This document shows, in pieces, positions 17,893 through 32,792 of a stretch of DNA of 32,917 nucleotides; positions within the stretch are counted from its first letter, which is position 1, and each line of letters begins with the position of its first letter. Origin of the DNA: Microcaldota archaeon (GTDB taxonomy: Archaea; Micrarchaeota; Micrarchaeia; Norongarragalinales; UBA97). The stretch covers positions 1-32,917 of the forward strand of contig JAJXUZ010000003.1 in NCBI GenBank assembly GCA_021782355.1, given 5' to 3'. Position numbers and translations under genes: made by a program. The notes under the pieces are model-generated. The model worked only from the letters and a program-made list of their open reading frames with translations, had not been told where the DNA came from and did no database searches.

Positions 17893-18387
17893 TTATCTAA
17901 CATAGCCAGGAATTCTTGTTTTTGAATTGTCCTTATCTTTTGATTTGGGCTTAATTTGAGAAACAGAATATGCTATTTTTTCTCCAATTGCACTTGCTCT
18001 TGCTAAATCTACTTCGCTTAAGGGACTAAAACGCCCAAAAATTTTTAAAATTCCGTTTAACTTAATGGTTAGTAAGTTTAATACGGTTAAACCGCGTTTT
18101 TGAGTTAACTTTTCAATCAGTTGCCATTCAAGAATTTTTGAATTTTTTGAAACGTAAATAACCGATATTGTGTTGGCTTTTAAATTTGGCAAATTTAAGA
18201 ATAGTTCAACTTGATTAACATCATTAACTACAAATGCAAGCGAGTTTGAAAAAGTAAGATGAAGGTCCGAAGAGTATTCGTTTAATGAGGTTTTGCAGTT
18301 TCTAGATTCTGCACCTTGTTTAATTTGATTAGCCAGTTGGTGACAATACAAATCGTTTGAATATATTACATTAAGACAATTATCCAT
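17893..18387 (-). CDS. hypothetical protein
   Basis: 164-aa ORF filling the gap between convergent/divergent genes; no family recognised. Confidence 0.45.
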   Translation of the reverse strand: MDNCLNVIYSNDLYCHQLANQIKQGAESRNCKTSLNEYSSDLHLTFSNSLAFVVNDVNQVELFLNLPNLKANTISVIYVSKNSKILEWQLIEKLTQKRGLTVLNLLTIKLNGILKIFGRFSPLSEVDLARASAIGEKIAYSVSQIKPKSKDKDNSKTRIPGYVR

Positions 18388-24750: not shown

Positions 24751-25836
24751 TTAAAGTAAATCTAATACGGATTCTAAACTTTCAAAAGAAATTTCGCCCA
24801 TATGACCAATCCTACAAACTGATTTACTAAATTCAGCCATCCCTAAACTAATTTCAAAACCAGAAGCTAAAAGTTTTTCTTTGATTTCAACTGCGTTTTC
24901 GGCTTTAAAGGTCGTAAGGGTGTTAGAGCGATAGTTTTCTTGAGCAAAGAGAGAGTAACCTTTTTCGGTTAATTTTGTTTGACATAGTTTAGCTGCCTTT
25001 GCGTGCTTTTCTATGTTTTTTTCAAGTCCAGTGTCAAAATAAATTTGAAGTGCTTGTTCTAATGCAAAATAAGCAGAAATATTTGGAGTGTAGGGTGTTT
25101 GACCGTCAGATAAAAATTTTTCATATTTTTTTAAGTCAAAATACATTGATGGGATTCTTTGGCGTTTGTTAATTTTTTGCCAAGCATCTTCTGAAACTGC
25201 TAAATATGAAACGCCAGGAGTGGAACCCACGCATTTTTGACTTGAACTTGCACAAATATCAATACCTAAAGAATCAAAATTAAGAGGACTGCCACCTAAA
25301 CCGGAAACAGAATCAACAATAATTAACGAATTGTTTTCGTTTGCAAGGGCGCAAATTTCTTTTAATGGGTTGCAAACACCCGTAGAAGTATCGTTGTGAA
25401 CAACTGAAATTATGGTAGGTTTAAAGTCTACTATTTCTTGATTGATTTGCTCTAAAGAAGGAGCTTTGCCCCAAGGAATGTTTAGCGTTTTTACATTATC
25501 GCAGTAATTTTGAGCACAAACGGTTAATCGAGCACCGAACCAACCGTTGTCGATACACAAAACTCTATCGTTTTTTTCCACTAAGTTTACAAATGCTGCT
25601 TCAACTGCTCCTGTTCCACTTGAACTTAAAGTAAATATTTTACTTTTAGCTTTTTCTGGATTAGTAAGATACAGTTTAGCTAAATTGGAAGAAATTGAAC
25701 TTATAATTCTTGAAAAATAGGGACCTCGGTGATTTACCATCTGTTTTGTCTGTTGTTGCAAAACTAATGAATTGACTTGAACTGGGCCGGGAATAAAGAG
25801 TTTAGGAAATATTAATTGACTAAGGTTGTCTTTCAT
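24751..25836 (-). CDS. class-V aminotransferase (alanine-glyoxylate/serine-pyruvate type)
   Basis: 'LFIPGPVQVNSLVLQQQTKQMVNHRGPYFSRII', 'SGTGAVEAAFVNLV', 'VDSVSGLGGSPLNFDSLGIDICASSSQKCVGSTPGVSYLAVS' (PLP Lys). Confidence 0.9.
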   Translation of the reverse strand: MKDNLSQLIFPKLFIPGPVQVNSLVLQQQTKQMVNHRGPYFSRIISSISSNLAKLYLTNPEKAKSKIFTLSSSGTGAVEAAFVNLVEKNDRVLCIDNGWFGARLTVCAQNYCDNVKTLNIPWGKAPSLEQINQEIVDFKPTIISVVHNDTSTGVCNPLKEICALANENNSLIIVDSVSGLGGSPLNFDSLGIDICASSSQKCVGSTPGVSYLAVSEDAWQKINKRQRIPSMYFDLKKYEKFLSDGQTPYTPNISAYFALEQALQIYFDTGLEKNIEKHAKAAKLCQTKLTEKGYSLFAQENYRSNTLTTFKAENAVEIKEKLLASGFEISLGMAEFSKSVCRIGHMGEISFESLESVLDLL

Positions 25837-27448
25837 TTTTAATTTTCTTATTTTTATATTCTTTAGCAGCATTGACAAATCCCAAATAAAGTGGTTCGGG
25901 ATTATCTAACCTAGAATCGAATTCTGGATGTGCTTGGGTGCCTACAAAAAACGGATGGCCATTTAATTCTCCGATTTTCATTATGGTTCTTACTGGGTCT
26001 TTACCAGAAAATATCCAACCGGACTTTGTGAATTCGGATACATATTCGGGATTTATTTCGTATCGATGTCTAAATCTCTTGAATATTTTTTCGGAATGAT
26101 ATAAAGAATGGGCAAGTGTATTGGGAGTAATTGCTACATCAAAACCACCCAATCGCATTGTTCCCCCTAAATTTCCAATAGATTTCTGCTCTGGCAGAAT
26201 ATCAATAACTGGATGAGTGGTGTTTTGGTCAATTTCAGTTGAATTGGCATCGAAATAATTCAAAAGATTGCGGGCGCTTTCGATAATTGCAATTTGTAAA
26301 CCGTAACAAATTCCCAAATATGGAACTTGGTTTTCTCTTGCATATTTAACTGATTGAATTTTACCTTCCACACCTCTTCCACCAAATCCACCGGGAACTA
26401 AAATTCCATCATAATCTTCCAAATTAGTTTTGCCTTTTTCTAAGGATTCGCTGTCAATTAAGTCAGCTACAAGTTTTACATTGCAGTTAATGGCGCAGTG
26501 TTCCAAAGATTCAAAAACACTCATATATGCGTCTTTGGAAGTGGCATATTTACCAATTACGGCAATCCTAACTTCTTGTTTTTCTTTTGAAAGTTGTTTT
26601 TGTTTTTCAATTAAAGGAGCCCATTTATCAGTTGAATTTTCAGATAATTCAAAATTCATTCTTTTTGATAATTTTGAGTGGACTTGTTGTTCAGCTAAAA
26701 CATAGGGAAGTTGATAGATCGAAAACACGGTGGGAGAATGAAGTACGTTTTCTTCACGAACATTGCAGAAAACGGCTATTTTTTCTTTTGCAGAATTTGT
26801 TAGTGGCTTATCGCATCGGGCTACTAAAAAGTCAGGAGTAATTCCTCTTGAAAGTAATGATTTTGTTGAATGTTGAATTGGTTTGGTTTTAACTTCCCCA
26901 GTTGTAATTGTGGGCACAAGAGCAAGGTGAAAAAAAGATACGTTTTCTGCTTCTTCTTCAAATTTCATTTGCCTTGCAGCCTCTAAAACAACATCAGACT
27001 CTATATCTCCAACTGTTCCGCCTATTTCTATAATTAAAATTTGGCAGTTTGTGGTTTTTGCTGCTTGTTTGATTCTTGATTTTATTTCGTTTGTAGCATG
27101 AGGAATTAGTTGAATTGTTTTTCCTAAATAGTCTCCGTGTCTTTCCTTTTCAATAATCGATTTGTAAACGCTTCCCATCATTAAATTTTGTTCTTTTTTG
27201 GCAAAAACATCAAGATAACGTTCGTAATTACCTATATCTAAATCGCATTCAAAACCATCTTGTGTGACAAATACTTCGCCGTGTTCAAATGGATTTAGTG
27301 TGCCTGCATCACAGTTCAAATAGGGGTCGATTTTCATTAAGGATACGTTTGAGCCATAAGATTTGAGGAGTTTTGCAAGTGAAGCGGAAAAAATTCCTTT
27401 TCCTAATGAACTAAGCACGCCACCAGTTACAAAGATATATTTAGCCAA
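25820..27448 (-). CDS. pyrG: CTP synthase
   Basis: 'KYIFVTGGVLSSLGKGIFSASLAKLLKSYG', 'KIDPYLNCDAGTLNPFEHGEVFVTQDGFECDLDIGNYERYLD', GATase 'VPYLGICYGLQIAIIE', 'THPEF'-like 'QAHPEFDSR'. Confidence 0.97.
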   Translation of the reverse strand: MAKYIFVTGGVLSSLGKGIFSASLAKLLKSYGSNVSLMKIDPYLNCDAGTLNPFEHGEVFVTQDGFECDLDIGNYERYLDVFAKKEQNLMMGSVYKSIIEKERHGDYLGKTIQLIPHATNEIKSRIKQAAKTTNCQILIIEIGGTVGDIESDVVLEAARQMKFEEEAENVSFFHLALVPTITTGEVKTKPIQHSTKSLLSRGITPDFLVARCDKPLTNSAKEKIAVFCNVREENVLHSPTVFSIYQLPYVLAEQQVHSKLSKRMNFELSENSTDKWAPLIEKQKQLSKEKQEVRIAVIGKYATSKDAYMSVFESLEHCAINCNVKLVADLIDSESLEKGKTNLEDYDGILVPGGFGGRGVEGKIQSVKYARENQVPYLGICYGLQIAIIESARNLLNYFDANSTEIDQNTTHPVIDILPEQKSIGNLGGTMRLGGFDVAITPNTLAHSLYHSEKIFKRFRHRYEINPEYVSEFTKSGWIFSGKDPVRTIMKIGELNGHPFFVGTQAHPEFDSRLDNPEPLYLGFVNAAKEYKNKKIKNERQP

Positions 27449-28648: not shown

Positions 28649-28954
28649 TTAATGGTTCCAGATTACCTTCCTACTTGACTCCATACGTTGAATTCTTTGT
28701 TCGCGTAATGCGTGATAATAAACTGCGCCGAACCCGCAAACTACTGAAATTACTGGTATGTATTGGATTACTAAGAAGTATATGCCAATGACTGCAAGAA
28801 TCATAGTGTAAAGTTCGAAGTGGGCGGCTTCTTTCCAGAGTGGAACGTAACCTTTTATGTAGTCCCACCTGGTGCTTCTTGACAAAAGTGGCTTTTGGTA
28901 TTCGGAAATTACCGTAGTTGATTGAATTTGTGGATCGTATATTGATTGTGCCAT
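28649..28954 (-). CDS. small two-TM membrane protein, family B member (B3)
   Basis: 'STRWDYIKGYVPLWKEA' motif, two TM, C-terminal 'SRKVIWNH'; AAGGAGATTAG upstream of ATG. Confidence 0.7.
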   Translation of the reverse strand: MAQSIYDPQIQSTTVISEYQKPLLSRSTRWDYIKGYVPLWKEAAHFELYTMILAVIGIYFLVIQYIPVISVVCGFGAVYYHALREQRIQRMESSRKVIWNH

Positions 28955-28969
28955 TTTTTTCTAATCTCC

Positions 28970-29407
28970 TTATGCAGCGTACATTAAGGTCTTACCCTTA
29001 AGCCAGCCGATACCCCAAGCGTTGTTCAACAAACGTTCACTGTAAAAGTATCCGGTTAAGTAGGCAAATACTCCAGCAACATAAACGCTTACGTACGCCC
29101 AAGTGACAAACATCAAAATAAAGCAAACTGCAGAGTATACCCAAGCAGAATATGCTCCACCGAAGTTTCCTCCGTGCATTGATGGGTCAAAGGCTTCCTC
29201 TAAAACATCCTTTCTGGTAATGATATCAGTAGTGTGAACTGGAACATTGGTGTCTCCTCTGCAGTTCATCGAGTCTCCTTTTGGTGAACCCATAGGAACG
29301 AACATTGGAACAAATGCCTTTTCTGATGAAGCGGAAGCTGATGCTGATGACTCCATAATGGAGGCGTTGGACTTTATGCTGTTTTTTGCTTGTGATAGTG
29401 TTCTCAT
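28970..29407 (-). CDS. small two-TM membrane protein, family A member (A2)
   Basis: 'FVPMFVPMG...', two TM, 'TGYFYSERLLNNAWGIGWLKGKTLM'. Confidence 0.7.
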   Translation of the reverse strand: MRTLSQAKNSIKSNASIMESSASASASSEKAFVPMFVPMGSPKGDSMNCRGDTNVPVHTTDIITRKDVLEEAFDPSMHGGNFGGAYSAWVYSAVCFILMFVTWAYVSVYVAGVFAYLTGYFYSERLLNNAWGIGWLKGKTLMYAA

Positions 29408-29409
29408 AA

Positions 29410-29691
29410 TTATTCCGCCAATATAATTTTACGTTGAGAGTTAAGGATGTAATCGGACAAACCTACTCTCGAATAGAAAATTGCAGCTGCTGCAAAGGCA
29501 ACTACACTTACTATAAAAATTCCTTTTAAGAGGAAAAGTAATCCGACAACGGCGCTGATTATAGCATAAGAATAGTTTCTTCTTCTGCTTAACCAGAATG
29601 GAAGATATCTCATCAAATAATCATACCTTACGGTCTCCCTTAATTGAGGGTGCTTTAAATCTGCCATTACCGTGGTTTCGCCGTATTGCAT
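29410..29691 (-). CDS. small two-TM membrane protein, family B member (B2)
   Basis: 'TVRYDYLMRYLPFWLSR' motif, two TM, C-terminal 'QRKIILAE'. Confidence 0.7.
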   Translation of the reverse strand: MQYGETTVMADLKHPQLRETVRYDYLMRYLPFWLSRRRNYSYAIISAVVGLLFLLKGIFIVSVVAFAAAAIFYSRVGLSDYILNSQRKIILAE

Positions 29692-29702
29692 ATTTAATCA
29701 TC

Positions 29703-29921
29703 CTAAATTATTTTTATTGAAATTGCATAATACAAAATACTTGCCAGAACTGCGGCATAAACAATCCAGTCTGGAACTGGAAAACCTAAACCGAAGCCGT
29801 TCATTGCTTGGTCAAAGGGAATGTGTGCGTTTTCTTTTTCAGCAATATCAGCAACTCCGAAATCTTCAAGGAGCATACCGATATGTTGGGAAATTGTTGG
29901 ATGTTTAATTGGGCTTGACAT
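29703..29921 (-). CDS. small single-TM protein of the cluster (C)
   Basis: 72 aa; AAAAGGAGGAACAAAAAATG start context; C-terminal TM 'WIVYAAVLASILYYAISIKII'. Confidence 0.65.
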   Translation of the reverse strand: MSSPIKHPTISQHIGMLLEDFGVADIAEKENAHIPFDQAMNGFGLGFPVPDWIVYAAVLASILYYAISIKII

Positions 29922-29936
29922 TTTTTGTTCCTCCTT

Positions 29937-30332
29937 TTAATCCACCAAAACAATGGTACGATTTTTTCCATATTGAAAAACGATGAAGTTATACCACCAG
30001 GCCAAATCTAACAATCTGCCGGCAACTATAAGGCAAAGAAATCCACCGATTGGAAAGGTTGAGAGCATCAATGCTCCAATTACCACTAAAATCAAACCCA
30101 TTGCCTTAGTAATTATTCCATACTTCCAAAAACCTACGAACTCTGACAAGTATTCCCATCTTGTCCACTGCCTCATATTTGGTGGCAAGTTTGGCTTTTG
30201 CTCAACTGGCATGAAGGTACTTTGCATATCGCTTTCTGCTTGAGATGGATTAGAGGGCATACTCACTAATTGTGATTGAGCAGATGCGTTATCTGCCAAT
30301 TGTGGAGCAATTGCGATATGTTCGTGTGCCAT
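29937..30332 (-). CDS. small two-TM membrane protein, family B member (B1)
   Basis: 'WTRWEYLSEFVGFWKYG' motif, two TM, C-terminal 'NRTIVLVD'. Confidence 0.7.
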   Translation of the reverse strand: MAHEHIAIAPQLADNASAQSQLVSMPSNPSQAESDMQSTFMPVEQKPNLPPNMRQWTRWEYLSEFVGFWKYGIITKAMGLILVVIGALMLSTFPIGGFLCLIVAGRLLDLAWWYNFIVFQYGKNRTIVLVD

Positions 30333-30348
30333 TTTTTATTCCTTTTTT

Positions 30349-30738
30349 TTAAGTTGATTCGAGAAGTCTGCGCCCCTTGAAAAGGTTGTTGATTGTAAAT
30401 CCCTTAACTACATATTCTCCGTAAGCATAACCTGCAAACAATCCGGCTGCAGCAGCCAAATATCCATTTACGAATAATAAAAATACAGCAGCAATTGCAG
30501 AAAGAATGGTTGCTACAAGCATTACACGCCACATTACCCAAGTTCCAATTCCTTGGTTCAAGAATGATTGACGAGTAGATACATTGGCAATGTTTCTTCC
30601 AAATGTTCGGGTGGGAAGGAACATAGGAATTGGTGCAAATTCTGGAGCCTTATTTTTAACTATGCCAGCTTTTGTTAAATCTTGGAGTTCGGCTAAACCC
30701 ACTTGTCTAATTTTTTTTAATTCTACGCGGTCTGCCAT
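30349..30738 (-). CDS. small two-TM membrane protein, family A member (A1)
   Basis: 'FAPIPMFLPTRTFG', two TM, 'AGYAYGEYVVKGFTINNLFKGRRLL'. Confidence 0.7.
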   Translation of the reverse strand: MADRVELKKIRQVGLAELQDLTKAGIVKNKAPEFAPIPMFLPTRTFGRNIANVSTRQSFLNQGIGTWVMWRVMLVATILSAIAAVFLLFVNGYLAAAAGLFAGYAYGEYVVKGFTINNLFKGRRLLEST

Positions 30739-30778
30739 TTTGTTATTTGCACCTATAAGAAGTATATGAGTTTAGTAA

Positions 30779-30787
30779 TATATAAAC
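30779..30787 (-). promoter_or_regulatory. candidate TATA box for the small-membrane-protein operon
   Basis: Reverse strand GTTTATATA about 45 nt upstream of the A1 start codon. Confidence 0.4.
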
Positions 30788-30918
30788 TGCTCGGTAGTAA
30801 CAAATAATTAGACGATTGACTTTAATTTGGACGTTAAACGAAAGGTAGTTTTTTTTGTTTTTTAGAGTGTTTTAATCAAAAGGCTTAAATGAATTGTTTG
30901 ATTGTTTAATATGTAAAA

Positions 30919-31344
30919 ATGGAACTACCAATTTCAATTATTGTTGTTTTATTCATTGCATTAATAGTAGGAGTGTTAGTGGTTACTTTCAGCCAACAAA
31001 CAATTGGACAGGCTGGAACAGATTTGAAAGGAGTTACAGGCGGATTTTCAAATAATAATGCAAATACTAATTCCCCTTTAATTGAAGTTTCATCTATTAG
31101 TCCTAGTCAAGTTGCAGGATTAATTGATAGTTGCTATTCTACCAGTTACGGACAATCGCTTGGAGATAGAAATTGTTACATTATTCACGGAACATCTTCT
31201 TTTGATTTGGGAGCAAATTCTCAAACTATTCTTTCAGACTTAACTCAAGCCAATGCAAGTGATGTGAATATTGTACCGGGTTCAAGTAATACTGTTTTGA
31301 TTAATTGGGTATTATCAAGCTCATCGGTCGAGGTGACCACTTAA
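30919..31344 (+). CDS. pilin-like/secreted protein with N-terminal TM
   Basis: 'MELPISIIVVLFIALIVGVLVVTFSQQ' then Ser/Asn-rich ectodomain; stop overlaps next start (TAATG). Confidence 0.6.
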   Translation: MELPISIIVVLFIALIVGVLVVTFSQQTIGQAGTDLKGVTGGFSNNNANTNSPLIEVSSISPSQVAGLIDSCYSTSYGQSLGDRNCYIIHGTSSFDLGANSQTILSDLTQANASDVNIVPGSSNTVLINWVLSSSSVEVTT

Positions 31345-32000
31345 TGAAGGAAAATAAAAATAAAATTTCTGCTTTCTTCGACTCTTTTAAAATGAAAAGA
31401 GGAGTGGAAATGGCCATTCAAATTTTCATTGTTCTTTTTGTCCTTCTTGCAGTTGCTATGTTGGTTCTTCAATTAGTCACCACACAGTTTTCAAAACAAC
31501 AGGCAAGTATTTCCAAACTTCAACAACAGCAACAATTGGCTCAACAAACAGCAAATGCACAAGCAGAATGTAACAATGCTTGCGTATGCGACACATTAAG
31601 TGATGAGGCATCTTACTGCACTAAACTTGTAAGTGGAGGATTAGATGCCCTAGGAGATGGAAACCTAAACCAATACACTGACAAGGCAATTATTGGAGTA
31701 GGAGCTTGTGAAAATAATATTTATTGTTCTCAAGTAAGTTCTTGCACCTGTGGCGGATTACAATTAACTATGAAGAATTGCATTAGCATCATTTGCCAGC
31801 AACTTTCGGCCGATGGGGTACCAGCAAACCTACAAACTCAAAAACTTCAAGAATTCATACACTTATTACCTACCGCCCCAGCAACTTGCGTAGACCCAAC
31901 AACCGGACAACAAGCTACTACCAATGAAAGCGGAAGTTGGTATATGTCACTTTATACTGACGCAAATGGAAATCCAATACCTCCAAGTTGCCCGGGTTAA
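31344..32000 (+). CDS. class III-signal-peptide-like, Cys-rich secreted protein
   Basis: 'MKRGVEMAIQIFIVLFVLLAVAMLVLQLV' followed by an ectodomain with about 12 Cys. Confidence 0.65.
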   Translation: MKENKNKISAFFDSFKMKRGVEMAIQIFIVLFVLLAVAMLVLQLVTTQFSKQQASISKLQQQQQLAQQTANAQAECNNACVCDTLSDEASYCTKLVSGGLDALGDGNLNQYTDKAIIGVGACENNIYCSQVSSCTCGGLQLTMKNCISIICQQLSADGVPANLQTQKLQEFIHLLPTAPATCVDPTTGQQATTNESGSWYMSLYTDANGNPIPPSCPG

Positions 32001-32011
32001 AGAGCATATAA

Positions 32012-32425
32012 ATGGATCAAGCGGTTTGGTTGTATGCAGGAGTGGTTTCAGTCCTAATTGGACTGGCCATAGTCGCCTCATTAGTTTACAATAGCTTTGG
32101 GGCGAACAATGCTACATTATTGCAAAATGCAGTATCCGATATTGCTGCAAAATGTGATTTTGTTTGTCAAACTGATATTGGAACACAATTGTCTACTAAT
32201 CCAACATTAGTTTCCAACTCGATTATTTATGCAAATAATTCTGCAGTATGTTATCAATATAATGGAAATTTCAATTGCGCTAGATGCGGATGTACTATTA
32301 ATCCTTATGTTTTAAATTTAACTGACCCGGCAATTGTTGAGGCTTATACCACTCATCAATTTACCTGCACAATTTCAAGAACTACCACCTCCAATGGAGA
32401 TGTTTCAATTGAATGCGCGGGGTGA
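32012..32425 (+). CDS. N-terminal TM, Cys-rich secreted protein
   Basis: 'VWLYAGVVSVLIGLAIVASLVYNSFG' then 8 Cys including CARCGC. Confidence 0.6.
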   Translation: MDQAVWLYAGVVSVLIGLAIVASLVYNSFGANNATLLQNAVSDIAAKCDFVCQTDIGTQLSTNPTLVSNSIIYANNSAVCYQYNGNFNCARCGCTINPYVLNLTDPAIVEAYTTHQFTCTISRTTTSNGDVSIECAG

Positions 32426-32792
32426 AATTACTTCTGAAGTAATGGTTTGGTTAGTAGTGGTTTTGGCTATTGGAATGGTATTGGTTTGGTATATTGGAAA
32501 TTTGTATTTATATCGTCAGCCGATTGAAAAGTCTGCAGCTGATGCAAGGAATATTGCAGACTTGGTAAATCAAGGATGTAATTTGGCTTATTTTAATGCA
32601 AGTTATAATCCAGTTACGGAAACCGGTAATTTATCAGTGGCAAATAGCACAATTTGTATTAATAATTTGGGAGCAAGTTCGTGTTATAAAACCGCTTGTA
32701 ATTTCAATTATTATAACACCACCATAGATTTAAGCACAGTTACTGAAATTTATGTGATAAATAATGGACAGATTCAGATTTATGGAAGTTAG
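32394..32792 (+). CDS. pilin-like protein with class III-like signal
   Basis: 'MEMFQLNARGEITSEVMVWLVVVLAIGMVLVWYIG'; start overlaps the preceding gene; ectodomain with 4 Cys. ATG at 32394 or 32400. Confidence 0.6.
   Translation: MEMFQLNARGEITSEVMVWLVVVLAIGMVLVWYIGNLYLYRQPIEKSAADARNIADLVNQGCNLAYFNASYNPVTETGNLSVANSTICINNLGASSCYKTACNFNYYNTTIDLSTVTEIYVINNGQIQIYGS

Follow-up and report, generated by a model that had tools for sequence, protein, structure and literature searches.

What do six small, closely packed genes of a Micrarchaeota genome encode, and do their products work together in the membrane? The genes lie in the window, by which we mean the whole 32,917-nucleotide stretch of DNA analysed here. 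The original prediction read them as two interleaved families of paralogues that form a hetero-oligomeric membrane complex, perhaps a surface or host-contact structure.

The operon in the window

All six predicted ORFs are present and co-directional on the minus strand, running from 30738 to 28649 in the series A1-B1-C-B2-A2-B3 with intergenic gaps of 2-16 bp (Table 1); spacing in the operon is tight, mostly below 20 bp. The motif proposed for the B proteins occurs exactly as TRWEYLSEFVGFW, VRYDYLMRYLPFW, and TRWDYIKGYVPLW, and the PMF[LV]P motif is found as PMFLP and PMFVP in A1 and A2. The C-terminal motif proposed for the A proteins is also real, but A2 reads GWLKGKTL at this site, which changes the common pattern to [LW][FL]KG[RK]xL. 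Strong Shine-Dalgarno sequences (GGAG/GGAGG), once attributed to several genes, are confined to C and B3, while those of the other four genes are weaker. One promoter had been expected to serve the operon, and a single strong TATA-type promoter does lie upstream of A1. The C proteins carry a conserved LLED-G-L...F..AM...PD motif; six loci yielded no recognisable C, and B1 and A2 are separated there by 236-474 bp.

Table 1. Coordinates of the operon genes and promoter element in the window. Hairpins and membrane helices are predicted.
Feature	Position	Strand	Description
A1	30349..30738	-	129 aa, hairpin membrane protein, operon gene 1
B1	29937..30332	-	131 aa, hairpin membrane protein
C	29703..29921	-	72 aa, one predicted membrane helix
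B2	29410..29691	-	93 aa, lineage-specific copy of B3 (tree position; 5 genomes only)
A2	28970..29407	-	145 aa, hairpin membrane protein, N-terminal tail longer
B3	28649..28954	-	101 aa, hairpin membrane protein, closes operon
Promoter element TGTTACTACCGAGCAGTTTATATAT	30778..30802	-	10-mer and TATA box, 39 bp before A1 start codon

The prediction that these proteins belong to no known family agrees with every library consulted. Comparison of the window proteins with Pfam, PHROG, and NCBIfam, and of the family members with Pfam, returned chance matches only. Searching PDB sequences with three profiles gave only weak matches to receptor-BRIL fusions, which apparently fall at the fusion junction and were judged to be chance. 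Foldseek against PDB and BFVD produced no match below E 0.48, as is expected of a plain hairpin, a scan of IMG/VR found no relative of the operon, and literature searches found nothing on it. With no relative in any library searched, the products would represent a novel membrane complex of DPANN archaea, a poorly understood group; the novelty lies in the family and its organisation, and the role could prove to be of a known kind.

Distribution and inheritance

The core A1-B1-C-A2-B3 occurs in the same order in 28 of the 30 genomes of one Micrarchaeota order (8 families), and gene order is identical wherever the contig allows it to be read. Of 99 relatives, 27-28 are matched by B1 and by A2, none of them outside this order. 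A B3/B2 profile, run against 303 genomes of the phylum, has matches in 29 of the order's 30 genomes, among them every one of the 8 with completeness of at least 90%, and no credible match in the 273 genomes outside it. The one genome of the order without a B3/B2 match (G022) is 83% complete, and the sole profile match outside the order (G278) was discarded, its frame containing two stops. The genes are thus not scattered singly among relatives, and the operon is order-specific and vertically inherited. Since the complete set survives in unchanged order in about 30 species whose genomes are very small, and under its own promoter, it is probably important or essential to them.

A search of genome contigs with the B1 alignment found seven named loci, all from environmental MAGs, of which six are labelled Candidatus Micrarchaeota and one just 'archaeon'; genome contigs scanned with B3 alone gave no match. 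The operon copies of loci L073 (G004, contig C41) and L086 (G018, contig C32) score identically in every search, and these genomes belong to different families; the G004 contig is probably misbinned.

Lineage-specific DPANN membrane families (Castelle et al. 2021, PMC8204110) offer a parallel, being likewise membrane-bound, restricted to one lineage, kept within it, and without functional prediction. As described, those are single families grouped in modules, whereas here the homologous subunits are encoded in a fixed operon that has its own promoter element and whose pair duplication can be traced.

A domesticated virus or mobile-element module is a further candidate. Small hydrophobic hairpin proteins form the capsids of spindle-shaped archaeal viruses, and the operon could in principle descend from such a module. 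A scan of IMG/VR found no relative, PHROG gave no match, BFVD offers no fold match below E 0.48, and the operon is inherited vertically at a locus that is mostly conserved and has CTP synthase downstream of it; we regard this origin as barely credible.

Two branches of one hairpin superfamily

Within its own genome, a B1 query matches B3 and B2 only. Profile comparison reaches further, with hhalign E-values of 5e-21 for A1-A2, 6e-19 for B1-B3, 2e-15 for A1-B3, 4e-12 for A1-B1, 1e-8 for A2-B3, and 8e-7 for A2-B1, each profile being built from 26-32 proteins and each value being that of a single pair, helped by common hydrophobicity. The four core profiles therefore match one another across the A/B divide. 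A membrane-proximal T-R motif is aligned in every profile pair, and in a joint alignment of 115 A/B proteins its arginine is present in 112, while a basic residue occupies one near-C-terminal position in 111. A superfamily profile recovered all 119 A/B proteins from 2456 neighbourhood ORFs, most of these proteins having belonged to its training set, with nothing else below E 0.09. Because the profiles cross-match and the T-R arginine and C-terminal basic residue are common to both, the sequences place A and B in a single superfamily of two-helix membrane hairpins, as its two branches. The idea of two interleaved paralogous families is upheld and refined in this way. The T-R motif and C-terminal basic residue recur in every A/B subunit, as expected of pseudo-equivalent subunits.

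The C proteins of family f7 have a second helix and a basic tail as well, suggestive of a truncated A/B hairpin; profile comparison gave no support for homology of C to A/B, and this candidate was set aside.

A tree of the A/B proteins separates A from B with support of 99, based on 112 columns and SH-aLRT support only. A2 and B1 each form a single group, A1 and B3 nearly do so, and B2 is nested within B3. Taken with the order A1-B1-C-A2-B3, the A/B split implies that A1-B1 and A2-B3 are probably the products of duplication of an A-B gene pair. B2 is a late duplicate of B3 by its place in the tree. It is present in just five genomes (G000, G001, G002, G004, and G006) and follows A2 in G004, which makes the six-gene arrangement of the window a local elaboration; the ancestral core is A-B-C-A-B. 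The predicted repeated duplication and fixed order therefore hold, with the core lacking B2. If the products do assemble, the operon would be a clean case of a hetero-oligomer growing through duplication of a gene pair.

Beyond the 28 genomes with the core, a 29th (G009, family f6) carries a diverged, adjacent pair of hairpin ORFs at L104:1215-1751 and 746-1237, which a small search matched at E 1e-9 and 5e-4. This pair is possibly an unduplicated or reduced A-B version, and no copy of the promoter element described below was found in that genome at up to 2 mismatches.

The promoter element

A 25-bp element with the consensus TGTTACTACY-N4-AGTTTAWAWAT stands upstream of A1 in all 27 genomes in which the region is assembled, with 0-1 mismatches in 26 of them and 2 in G003. 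The window contains one match against 0.03 expected. When up to 1 mismatch is allowed, the order's 30 genomes hold only one further site (on contig C52 of G006), and the remaining 273 genomes of the phylum hold none. A motif sampler applied upstream of A1 scored 32.4 bits compared with 10.7 for shuffled sequence; upstream of pyrG the corresponding values were 17.4 and 15.0. Its TATA portion is unremarkable for a strong archaeal promoter. The 10-mer, at fixed spacing before it, looks like the site of a regulator serving the operon alone, and an element that occurs essentially once per genome offers direct access to a possible transcription factor with one target. Second half-sites near the element number 5 against 1.25 expected and are confined to 4 of 26 loci.

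Hairpin anatomy and topology

The A and B proteins are predicted to be hairpins. AlphaFold2 models B3 as a helix at residues 29-64, amphipathic in its first half and membrane-embedded in its second, followed by a two-residue turn and a helix at 67-92, and A2 as helices at 82-105 and 108-137, the membrane helices of both models being well predicted and the tails poorly. Hydropathy mostly gives a single continuous hydrophobic span that is nearly free of charge, and neither charge analysis nor the joint alignment finds a conserved charged or polar residue inside the spans. The 25 residues before the span hold a mean of 4.2-4.6 K/R in A1, B1, B2, and B3, and the mean after the span is 2.6-4.9; A2, with only 2.5 before and 2.6 after, has a weak charge pattern. 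As positive charge flanks the hairpin on both sides, the positive-inside rule would place both tails of the A and B proteins in the cytoplasm. With a turn of a few residues, no outer domain seen, and nothing sizeable left outside, a host-contact role of the hairpin proteins themselves is unlikely, and the suggestion of a surface or host-contact structure loses its footing. In a few species the N-terminal tail before the hairpin is rich in histidine (A1 of L060; A2 of L082), and these tails are possibly metal-binding.

A likely membrane complex and its role

The genes are inherited together in a fixed order under one promoter, and their products share motifs, which together make an obligate hetero-oligomeric membrane complex likely; a hetero-oligomer had been predicted, and we hold this assembly with reasonable confidence. 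In the arrangement that we favour, an ancestral A-B gene pair would have duplicated into A1-B1 and A2-B3, which flank C, and a single dedicated strong promoter would ensure that all subunits are made together. The products would assemble as a pseudo-symmetric hetero-oligomer, whose simplest form is (A-B)2 plus C. Each hairpin would span the cytoplasmic membrane and turn straight back with almost nothing outside, while the cytoplasmic face would hold the N-terminal tails, the amphipathic helix with the T-R motif, and the basic C-terminal tail. Such a platform may shape or organise the membrane and recruit cytoplasmic partners. The absence of catalytic-looking polar residues in the membrane makes a structural role the most likely one, as read from the anatomy. 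The full statement, that of an order-specific, vertically inherited, pseudo-symmetric (A-B)2 plus C complex of helical hairpins with a scaffold role included, is put forward tentatively, at somewhat less than even chances. A broader one, that this is an undescribed machine, universal in the order and unique in the phylum, built of hairpins by A-B pair duplication and controlled by a regulator with this promoter as its sole genomic target, comes close to an even call.

Reticulons and the MICOS subunit Mic10 would work in a similar manner, being oligomeric, tight membrane hairpins whose two ends both face the cytoplasmic or an equivalent side. The likeness is one of working only: the operon is archaeal and encodes four or five paralogues as a fixed set, and Pfam scans of the window proteins and family members gave no reticulon or Mic10 match.

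A ring of paralogous hairpins is also a common channel design. The hairpins could accordingly line a pore, as a pseudo-symmetric hetero-tetrameric or hetero-pentameric channel or a transporter of small solutes or metal gated by the cytoplasmic tails, and the histidine-rich tails of some A1 and A2 proteins could then bind metal. These tails are limited to a few species, however, no transporter family is matched, and the hydrophobic spans lack conserved charged or polar residues. We consider a channel unlikely, though a serious contender. With no conserved polar residues in the membrane and no enzymatic motifs, the structural scaffold is favoured over a transporter, but only moderately.

The subunit of the ATP synthase c ring is likewise a two-helix hairpin, and a gene set found throughout the order but nowhere else would fit the replacement of a standard component that the order has lost, for example this ring or the division membrane anchor SepF. 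Yet SepF is found in 28 of the 30 genomes and ATP-synt_C in 24 of the 30, both away from the operon, and replacement of these two components, still present in most genomes of the order, is not supported. The c-subunit profile (PF00137) has no match, and no acidic residue is conserved within the membrane span of the hairpins, which have no conserved mid-membrane carboxylate. Replacement is very improbable.

Neighbouring genes

The neighbours of the operon vary by family. In family f4 (L063, L065-L067, L076, L080, L083, and L086), an S-layer gene with a Pfam S_layer_C match lies divergent from A1 at a distance of about 300-560 bp, so that the conserved promoter region lies between the two genes. 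In the window, a divergent run at 30919-32792 (+) encodes four small proteins with N-terminal hydrophobic segments that look pilin-like by eye (e.g. MELPISIIVV and ARGEITSEVMVWL), none of which matches a Pfam family above the cut-off. A prepilin peptidase gene is near the operon in L062 and L087.

Surface-gene neighbours of this kind, recurring in several lineages, would suit a component of an apparatus (cell envelope, pilus, or secretion) in contact with hosts or the outside, such as a base piece resembling VirB3/PrgI. These two-helix type IV secretion subunits are, like the operon products, small membrane proteins with basic cytoplasmic ends. The operon differs in having several mutually homologous subunits, and no VirB4-type secretion ATPase or VirB6-type gene is seen in it, the neighbourhood genes being variable. 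The Pfam PrgI profile has no match up to E 1 in the six window proteins and is absent among the 25 most-matched families up to E 0.1 for 32 B2/B3 and 28 A2 proteins. Pilin profiles have no match either; archaeal type IV pilins have one N-terminal hydrophobic helix together with a class III signal peptide, whereas the operon proteins have a hairpin near the C-terminal end. Moreover, the neighbours are not the same between families, S-layer genes span the whole class while the operon does not, and almost nothing of the hairpins would lie outside the cell. An envelope or secretion role is therefore improbable, and the scaffold remains our preferred reading.

In one genome, two ftsZ-like genes (by eye) lie immediately upstream of the operon (L082:5848-8198), and a Holliday-junction-resolvase-like gene (by eye) is near it in part of f7. 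CTP synthase (pyrG) lies on the same strand, 91 to 4899 bp downstream of the operon, in 13 loci and in the window (25820-27448, -), an adjacency most simply explained as old synteny.

The window also encodes, at 17893-18387 (-), a degenerate flavodoxin-like protein whose C-terminal K-RI-GY tail is conserved. Like the operon it is nearly confined to the order, occurring in 27 of the 30 genomes, with weak matches in 4 genomes elsewhere; one relative passes as Pfam Flavodoxin_5, and the window copy has no match. Flavodoxin-like loci are L062, L069, L071, L078, L081, and L087. In three genomes the gene is 43-257 bp downstream of B3, and a functional link between the flavodoxin-like protein and the operon is possible.
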